From the IMG/VR virus record IMGVR_UViG_3300026097_000876, positions 1 through 64,000 of that record: a stretch of DNA of 64,000 nt. One strand, 5' to 3'. Below the pieces are notes generated by a model. It did not search any database and was not told the origin of the DNA. It saw only the letters and a list, made by a program, of their open reading frames with translations. Positions 56,615 through 62,368 of the stretch are shown here, one piece after another (the first letter of the stretch is position 1; every line of letters starts with the position of its first letter). The translations under genes and the position numbers were made by a program. This DNA comes from a virus.

Positions 56615-57181
56615 TCACACCACAGTGTTGTCAATTAACAACTGATCCATCATTTGATCACTGGCCAACTGAATACCCATCTTCCACTGATCTTCTTCAT
56701 CTTCGTTGTAAAAAATTTCGTGATTGGGCTCTACCAACAACCAAGCCTTGTGTTGATACAGTTCTTCCTGAAGCTGTTTGACTCCCCAAGTGCTCATTCC
56801 GGCTATCAGTCTCCAACAGGCAGGTAAGTTGCCATCTACCATCTTGTCCAGCATTAGTTCGTCTGAACTAATACAATTGCCGTGGGTCACAGGAATAGTG
56901 TTTGTGCTGTTCCATTCATCAGTGTGCAGGAGTATTAGGCTCTGTTCACCCACTGGACCGCCTCTGTACACACTGCCAGTGGCACCTGTGTTGTAGATGC
57001 CACGTAGGCCCTGAAGCCTGTCAATGGTGAGATAACTGGGCTTGTTGAGAATCAATCCAAACACTATGAGATCTGTTTGTTCATAAAGATAAACCACAGT
57101 CTGTGCAAAAGTTGGATCTCGCATGGTGCCAGGGCGAGCAATTAATAGCTTGCCTTTGAACTTGGTTTCAACCTTGGTCAT
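56615..57181 (-). CDS. YqgE/AlgH-family protein
   Basis: 188 residues. Starts like the family (GKLLIARPGTMRDPTFAQTVVYL), with FGLILNKP, YRGGPVGEQSL and WGVKQLQEEL following. A cellular protein of poorly known role. Unusual in a phage. One-base overlap with the gene upstream. Confidence 0.87.
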   Translation of the reverse strand: MTKVETKFKGKLLIARPGTMRDPTFAQTVVYLYEQTDLIVFGLILNKPSYLTIDRLQGLRGIYNTGATGSVYRGGPVGEQSLILLHTDEWNSTNTIPVTHGNCISSDELMLDKMVDGNLPACWRLIAGMSTWGVKQLQEELYQHKAWLLVEPNHEIFYNEDEEDQWKMGIQLASDQMMDQLLIDNTVV

Positions 57182-60734: not shown

Positions 60735-60885
60735 TGCTAGCTATACACAAAACAAAATTTCCTTGAGGCCCCGCTGCTAGTATCACGGTATCACACACAC
60801 TCTATACAGTGTAGATGCTTGCCGTAGAAAGACTGTGTGTCTAGGTTGATTTTATAGTGTGACTAGGTTGAATCTAGCGTGGGAA

Positions 60886-60951
60886 GAACCGTAAAAAGCG
60901 TTTGAAAGAAAGGTAAAAAGTATTTGAGAGAAAGGTAAAAAGTATTTGAAC
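60886..60951. repeat. Three 22-bp iteron-like repeats
   Basis: Copies start at 60886, 60908 and 60930, exactly 22 bp apart, core GGTAAAAAGTATTTGA. The first copy differs at a few bases. Confidence 0.85.
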
Positions 60952-61014
60952 TATGCCTCTCGTCACCACGGTCAAGAAATTTTTTTTTGGCTATAGATCG
61001 TGCCAGAACCGTAA

Positions 61015-61310: not shown

Positions 61311-61330
61311 TGTGTATAACTTGTGTATAA
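61311..61330 (-). promoter_or_regulatory. DnaA-box-like pair 1
   Basis: TGTGTATAA at 61311-61319 and 61322-61330, the reverse complement of TTATACACA (consensus TTWTNCACA), 11 bp apart. Confidence 0.65.
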
Positions 61331-61356
61331 GTGTGTGCGAGAATATTGTGTGTAAA

Positions 61357-61398
61357 ATCAAACACTTAGCAAATCTTGTGTAAAATCAAGCACTTAGC
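61357..61398. repeat. Direct repeats ATCAARCACTTAGC
   Basis: Copies at 61357-61370 and 61385-61398 (28 bp apart), with an inverted copy at 61593-61606. Confidence 0.8.
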
Positions 61399-61511
61399 TC
61401 TGTGCATAAGTCCGCCGTTCGCCGCCTCGTTTGCGTTCGTCCCGTGTAAGTTATTGTTTTTGTTGAGGATTTTGTGTTCGTTTTGTTCTTTCTAAACAAG
61501 CACTTATGTGT

Positions 61512-61531
61512 TGTGGATAAGCTGTGGATAA
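61512..61531 (-). promoter_or_regulatory. DnaA-box-like pair 2 (perfect TTATCCACA)
   Basis: TGTGGATAA at 61512-61520 and 61523-61531, both perfect E. coli R1-type boxes in reverse orientation, 11 bp apart. Confidence 0.72.
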
Positions 61532-61557
61532 CTTTTGCGAGGGGTGCGCATAATGTG

Positions 61558-61678
61558 TATTATGTTAAATGAGAATTGGATGAGGAACGTGCGCTAAGTG
61601 TTTGATATTGTTGAGGTGGGGCCGTGCGCATTTAACATAATACCGGCCGTGTGCGCATATAATATATTATGTTAAATG
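61558..61678. repeat. TATTATGTTAAATG repeats (two direct, one inverted)
   Basis: Copies at 61558-61571 and 61665-61678, with the inverted copy at 61629-61642. GTGCGCAT occurs beside each. Confidence 0.82.
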
Positions 61679-61692
61679 AAGGTGGGGCGACT

Positions 61693-61712
61693 TGTGGACA
61701 AGCTGTGGATAA
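61693..61712 (-). promoter_or_regulatory. DnaA-box-like pair 3
   Basis: TGTGGACAA at 61693-61701 and TGTGGATAA at 61704-61712, same orientation, 11 bp apart. Confidence 0.68.
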
Positions 61713-61800
61713 CTTTCGGTTCGCGCACCCTCCCTCCTTGTACTCCGGTCTCTTCGTTCCCGCTTGTATGTTTTGTGCCTTTGCCCTAACTGTTATATAC

Positions 61801-61829
61801 AGTATACGGCCTCGCCGCCAAAAAGTCAA
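61801..61829 (-). promoter_or_regulatory. Leftward sigma70 promoter reading into the origin-like region
   Basis: TTGACT (61824-61829), 17-base spacer, TATACT (61801-61806), then the ACTGTATATAACAGT operator shared with the 5.6 and 6.5 kb promoters. No gene lies downstream on this strand, so its RNA may be a primer or regulator. Confidence 0.78.
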
Positions 61830-61928
61830 CCTTCTGAGGTCTTGTAAGTCATTGTTTCGTAAGGGAAAAATAAATTAAAAAAAGTTTTTTTCCTCTGTGT
61901 TTTCAATAGCTTACAAAAAAAATAATGC

Positions 61929-61957
61929 TTGCTTTTTTGCGCAAACGAGGCTATACT
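61929..61957 (+). promoter_or_regulatory. Early promoter 1
   Basis: TTGCTT (61929-61934), 17-base spacer, TATACT (61952-61957), with a TACTG-CTTATA-CAGTA dyad over the -10. Confidence 0.72.
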
Positions 61958-62002: not shown

Positions 62003-62368
62003 ATGCAAAACTTTACACAAGCAGCACTTGCAGACGTGCAAGCACTAGTTAACACTTACGCTAATATTGCGGGCGATTACGAAGCAACGCTGTTATGCGG
62101 CGTATGGCACTACATGTGCGACAGCGGCATATACACAGACGCATTTAGCGAAGCAGATGCGGAGTATGTAGAAGCGCACTACGACAACAATGTGCAATAC
62201 TACAACGACGACGATTGCGGCTACACAGACGCATTTTATGCTGTAATATTTGACGACGATAAATTGCAATGCAATGCAGTGTTACAAGCACAAGATGCAA
62301 TTGCAAACAAGCATAATTTGCATAACGAAGATGTTGCACGTATGTGTATGCAACTAGAAGCAAGTTAA
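62003..62368 (+). CDS. Acidic early protein of unknown function
   Basis: 121 residues, strongly acidic: many Asp/Glu and only three Lys/Arg. It also carries four or more Cys (CGVWHYMCDSG, DDDCGYTD). RBS AGAGGGC and ATGCAA start, a leader form shared with the next three genes. Acidity and early promoter fit a DNA-mimic or host-takeover protein, but there is no family match. Confidence 0.7.
   Translation: MQNFTQAALADVQALVNTYANIAGDYEATLLCGVWHYMCDSGIYTDAFSEADAEYVEAHYDNNVQYYNDDDCGYTDAFYAVIFDDDKLQCNAVLQAQDAIANKHNLHNEDVARMCMQLEAS

Follow-up and report, generated by a model that had tools for sequence, protein, structure and literature searches.

In ColE1, RNA II is a structured primer RNA that comes with an antisense RNA I and an RNase H site. 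In phage lambda it is transcription from pR that activates the origin, and transcriptional activation has also been discussed for oriC (PMC5043065). RNA priming is known from T4 oriF and oriG, where an origin of this kind combines a promoter with an unwinding element on its downstream side, and UvsW unwinds the R-loops (PMC3016281).

The locus considered here lies in the window, by which we mean the whole 64,000-nucleotide stretch that was analysed, and which covers positions 1 to 64,000 of a 261,806-base IMG/VR virus record. In the reading that we favour, and to which we would give a probability of roughly 0.45 on sequence grounds, an untranslated sigma70 early RNA crosses a replicator leftward and transcription helps to activate the origin, as lambda pR does. 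Like the lambda origin, the locus appears to combine iterons and origin-crossing transcription with a promoter under an operator, but pR yields the mRNA for cro, O and P, whereas the RNA predicted here is without a credible gene, and where lambda has O iterons the present region has DnaA boxes and dif-like sites as well. The resemblance to T4 oriF and oriG lies in the shared virus superfamily, the presence of a UvsW-type helicase in the genome and a promoter as the core of the putative origin; the minimal T4 origin is however a middle promoter with an AT-rich element just downstream, whereas this locus has an early-type promoter, stable downstream DNA, DnaA boxes and iteron-like repeats. With E. 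coli oriC and the iteron plasmids it shares iteron-like repeats and a cluster of DnaA boxes, most of which have the same orientation, and perhaps also a weak duplex to one side of them, but no DnaA or Rep gene was identified in this phage, paired dif-like sites lie inside the cluster, and the general independence of iteron plasmids from transcription (PMC5043065) counts against activation by transcription.

Each of these ingredients is known, and for their apparent combination in a T4-superfamily jumbo phage we found no precedent in the part of the literature covered. The same partial coverage, which is not proof of absence from print, gave no paper pairing "DnaA box" with "jumbo phage", while the literature met on dif or XerCD together with phages concerned mainly filamentous phages and reviews of Xer. 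Nor did we meet, in the literature covered, a description of how T4-like jumbo phages choose and time their origins.

The phage and its relatives

Matches to Pfam and PHROGs identify the virus as a jumbo phage of the T4 superfamily, and comprise among structural proteins a T4-type terminase, the portal gp20, the capsid gp23 and the sheath stabiliser gp15, and among proteins of replication and metabolism a UvsW-type helicase, a RecA/UvsX-like protein, a DnaB-like helicase and a ribonucleotide reductase. The nearest named phages are those of the Paride/PA5oct group (Pseudomonas phages; Arenbergviridae, Wroclawvirus), with 54.6% identity in the terminase and, in the case of Paride, a partly collinear gene order. 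Paride has an AT-rich non-coding stretch at approximately the corresponding place, but one without a DnaA cluster, 12-mer repeats, the conserved element or a promoter of the class described below. Blastn with the region and with the regions of two relatives gave no match to a named phage, and a search of named phages with the 48-nt conserved element returned only weak Sulfolobus virus matches at 46% coverage. A phage-encoded protein at L004:18298-19809 (+) matches tryptophan halogenase (Pfam E 1e-85).

No match to DNA polymerase A, B or C was found in the 261.8-kb record. We reject the idea that this points to a reliance on the replication machinery of the host, since the record is a fragment that, judged by the gene order of Paride, ends just short of the polymerase region, and since a family-B polymerase is present in four large relatives. 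A phage-plasmid form is likewise unsupported, the terminase search having led only to weak partial plasmid matches.

More distant relatives came to light through a 19-nt element, AGTATTTGAACTATGCCTC (TCG..CC), which was exposed by blast of the window against loci sharing a DnaA pair, the regions being otherwise unalignable. About 30 jumbo-phage contigs with flanks that cannot be aligned carry it, hardly varied, in front of their early-gene region, and the relatives share a layout in which the element is followed by a non-coding stretch and then by rightward early genes with strong promoters. A scan for AGTATTTGAACTATGCCTC gave 32 viral stretches and a further 9 in genome assemblies, 4 of which were accepted. 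One viral match, L146, was judged to be a chance match in coding sequence and was dropped, as was L152, a duplicate of L155; identical contigs were collapsed, and L143, L144 and L147 were left uncounted, their contigs ending within 160 nt of the element. The ends of the stretches were set manually just before, and sometimes near, the first rightward promoter. The element-bearing contigs L168, L171, L172 and L173 have been assigned to genomes of Neomarinimicrobiota, Sulfitobacter and Loktanella, probably through misbinning of phage DNA.

The leftward promoter and its RNA

The leftward promoter (Table 1) agrees with the consensus at 10 of 12 positions. When a position matrix is built from 12 rightward early promoters (62-71 kb) with the leftward promoter held out, the latter scores 40.6 and ranks 8th among all positions on the two strands of the 261.8-kb record; every other position that scores at least 22 is a training promoter or another member of the class, and unrelated positions reach at most 13.4. 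The class is defined by TTGACA-17-TATACT with ACTGT...ACAGT and AGTTAGGGCAA downstream, and the held-out rank places the leftward promoter within it; the operator-like palindrome recurs at other early promoters of the record. The leftward promoter is a full member of the phage's early promoter class, in agreement with the earlier note on this DNA, which had described a leftward promoter with a shared ACTGT operator, and by virtue of this membership it is presumably both strong and early. Leftward promoters of the same class are also found at 1120, 5650 and 6558 (-) of the window, in or just past the tRNA region, with ACTGT...ACAGT or a near match.

Table 1. Sequence features of the candidate replicator and its surroundings, in window coordinates
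Feature	Position	Strand	Detail
Conserved non-coding element	60941..60967	+	AGTATTTGAACTATGCCTCTCGTCACC; highly conserved, far end of region
DnaA pair 1	61311..61330	-	two TTATACACA
Three further strict DnaA boxes	61349..61409	-	at 61349, 61377 and 61401
Six iteron-like 12-mers	61357..61856		TAAGTNNTTGWT; 61357-, 61385-, 61447+, 61495-, 61595+, 61845+
DnaA pair 2	61512..61531	-	two TTATCCACA
dif-like Xer site 1	61543..61570	+	
dif-like Xer site 2	61650..61677	+	direct orientation, 107 bp from site 1
DnaA pair 3	61693..61712	-	TTGTCCACA (one mismatch) and TTATCCACA (exact)
G-rich leader segment of predicted RNA	61722..61749	-	weakly like the conserved leader motif of relatives
Operator-like palindrome	61789..61803		ACTGTATATAACAGT (ACTGT-ATATA-ACAGT); judged from sequence, shared copies and a shared 25-mer
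Sigma70-type early promoter	61801..61829	-	-35 TTGACT 61829-61824, 17-nt spacer, -10 TATACT 61806-61801; predicted start about 61794
AT-rich island	61855..61925		upstream of leftward promoter; candidate unwinding or UP element
Weak divergent rightward promoter	61929..61957	+	TTGCTT-17-TATACT, ahead of gene at 62003; matrix rank 23, score 10.4

The RNA predicted from this promoter carries no credible gene. Its first 295 nt contain no frame of at least 25 codons, so that the frame with a ribosome site expected near the start of a leftward mRNA is not found there; beyond this point the longest frame has 62 codons and begins with GTG, with no Shine-Dalgarno sequence seen before it. A 65-codon frame beginning with TTG is excluded as the gene of the RNA, since it starts inside the -35 box and hence outside the transcript. 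The earlier statement that there is no frame beyond a few codons is therefore right near the promoter but, in view of the GTG frame, too strong for the whole path. No convincing leftward terminator was seen from 61794 to 60328.

A replicator-like region

All three DnaA pairs, each held in a 25-mer repeat (61310, 61511 and 61692), lie leftward and downstream of the promoter, which reads over them from pair 3 to pair 1 as had been claimed. Strict TTWTNCACA boxes number eight within 61311-61712 (400 bp) and 57 in the whole record, from which about 0.09 would be expected per 400 bp, and all six copies of the iteron-like 12-mer in the 261.8 kb are confined to the interval given in Table 1. Clustered repeats of initiator type that are confined to the site are accordingly present, as the six 12-mers and the eight strict boxes. 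The record has only two dif-like sites, both between DnaA pairs 2 and 3, and site 1 matches 5,373 of 5,426 E. coli genomes, at a median of one place per genome and nearly always on the chromosome, in what we take to be the chromosomal dif site. An inverted XerD-type arm is found beside the dif-like sites at 61629-61643. As a whole the region looks like a replicator, and its standing as an origin would derive from these features of its sequence.

Similar repeats are found in the relatives. Across 22 stretches, 9 loci contain DnaA-box 9-mers and 10 contain the core TAAGTCATT, while no 9-mer reached more than 4 loci in a shuffle control of 30 sets; the window and L042 have both. The core TAAGTCATT is related to the 12-mer and recurs in box-free relatives. 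These observations also bear on a reading in which there is no origin at all and the boxes and dif-like sites serve to capture host DnaA and XerCD, for titration, dimer resolution or integration, the promoter being incidental. Such a capture site would be in agreement with the pairing of the dif-like sites, which are spaced almost identically in the distant relative L148 (106 bp apart), with the fact that no phage tyrosine recombinase was found in the incomplete record, and with the retention of the rest of the region in relatives without boxes. We nonetheless consider it quite improbable, since unique iteron-like repeats within the same 500 bp, and a core whose recurrence exceeds that of any shuffled 9-mer, fit the site of an initiator better.

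Duplex stability and the role of the RNA

The DNA just downstream of the promoter is unusually stable, since 60-bp segments that begin at 61680-61720 fall within the 0.7-3.2% of the window with the strongest duplex. The AT-rich island is on the upstream side, so that the predicted transcript would not enter an AT-rich unwinding element just downstream as it does at T4 oriF. The island itself is not conserved, the 60 bp to the right of the promoter being 46-53% AT in 5 of the 6 other loci with both boxes and promoter. Each of the 8 box-bearing loci does have a weak-duplex stretch, either at the left edge of the boxes or farther to the left, non-coding DNA being AT-rich generally, and the RNA would therefore reach such a stretch after some hundreds of bases. 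Judged by the R1 box of E. coli oriC, left is the side on which weak duplex is expected.

These properties weigh on the possibility that the leftward RNA primes the leading strand, by forming an R-loop that is trimmed and extended leftward by the phage polymerase, as at T4 oriF or in ColE1. A T4-like phage that encodes a UvsW-type helicase, a UvsX-like recombinase and a DnaB-like helicase would be suited to this, and the predicted RNA begins rich in purines (0.68 over its first 100 nt) and with a positive GC skew, oligo-G stretches directly preceding DnaA pair 3. The purine fraction is however only 0.56-0.68 when the leftward leaders alone are considered, and the T4 pattern leads one to expect AT-rich DNA just downstream, where that of the present locus is exceptionally stable. 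For this reason we rank activation by transcription above priming, which we regard as rather unlikely. The earlier note had the promoter firing into an origin with an RNA of a kind that often primes replication or opens the duplex; an early-class promoter directed into a gene-free, replicator-like region, an arrangement that recurs in distant relatives, is what remains of this, while the AT-rich downstream element of the T4 type does not.

If transcription does activate the origin, host sigma70 polymerase would use the early promoter to make an untranslated leftward RNA over the iteron-like repeats, the DnaA boxes and the dif-like pair. What counts would be transcription itself, by way of negative supercoiling behind the polymerase and the removal of bound proteins. 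A T4-like replisome would then load at the region, perhaps with host DnaA aiding the opening of the DNA. Activation of this kind would tie firing to the early phase and to whatever binds the ACTGT operator. More tentatively, and with considerable doubt, we suggest that a class of T4-superfamily jumbo phages may have a mosaic origin, made up of host DnaA boxes, phage-specific iterons and paired dif-like sites, for which an untranslated early RNA bearing a conserved leader would act as the switch; such phages would recruit host RNA polymerase, DnaA and possibly XerCD despite a T4-like replisome of their own. If true, the region would offer a candidate origin small enough to clone, and point changes could separate what transcription, host DnaA and the Xer sites each contribute.

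Promoter and leader in the relatives

A strong leftward promoter is found in 11 of 20 of the relatives' stretches, whereas 200 shuffled sets averaged 1.18 and never exceeded 5; the stretch of L149 was lengthened from 670 to 890 nt, past a rightward promoter at 679, to take in its leftward promoter, and the count would otherwise be 10 of 20. Two cut stretches, L156 and L151, are included in the 22 used for the repeats and absent from these 20. With L168, L171 and L172 added (from genome assemblies, none with a leftward promoter), the promoter accompanies the DnaA cluster at 7 of the 8 loci that have one and is present at 4 of the 15 that do not, and the corresponding Fisher p of 0.009 should be read as no more than indicative, since the loci are related and not independent. 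In all seven loci that have both (the window and 6 of the 7 other box-bearing loci) the boxes lie downstream of the promoter. The promoter is absent from 12 of the 23 evaluated loci, including L042 in spite of its DnaA cluster, and is therefore not essential across the family.

The same counts speak to the notion of an ordinary divergent early promoter without a role at an origin, whose RNA would be a by-product or would drive distant leftward genes. Early promoters are indeed dense on the right, and some relatives, L026 among them, do have leftward genes on the left side of the region, but an ordinary promoter would hardly be kept beside DnaA clusters so regularly or be followed by a conserved leader, and in the window the first genes met by the RNA are antisense, the first long leftward gene starting at 57181, more than 4 kb away. 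We consider this explanation very improbable. The nearest clear genes to the left are furthermore mostly opposite-facing in the relatives, which argues that the leftward RNA is not simply an mRNA.

The leader in question, TCGAAGGACTACAATTCCGGGRTGGACG, follows the leftward promoter in almost the same form in L128, L026, L142 and L165, about 45-80 nt past the predicted start. Scanning the viral collection with its 23-mer pattern gave 7 contigs of four lineages (L128 with L103, L111 and L032; L026; L142; L165), every one of which has a leftward promoter about 80 nt upstream, and a shorter form is present in L154, L155 and L092. Such conservation would suit a regulatory non-coding RNA with a 5' leader acting in cis or trans, for example as antisense to rightward read-through or in replication control. 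The window however resembles the motif only weakly, tRNAs are the sole matches in an Rfam search that included the window, folds of single leader sequences read by eye show no common shape, and the motif might just as well serve as a DNA-binding site, all of which makes a regulatory RNA improbable, if somewhat less so than a mere capture site. No strong opposing promoter was found inside the leader.

Two further features were considered at the left of the region. GC skew is rejected as a mark of an origin, since the minimum at about 60.8 kb of the window is local and the cumulative minimum of the record, itself a fragment, lies at about 189 kb. The conserved element at 60941 is likewise rejected as a coding remnant, a comparison of frames across loci having shown that the window does not maintain the surrounding frame. 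Directly before it, at 60884-60949 of the window, three tandem 22-nt repeats of the AAGAAAGGTAAAAAGTATTTGA type run into the element.
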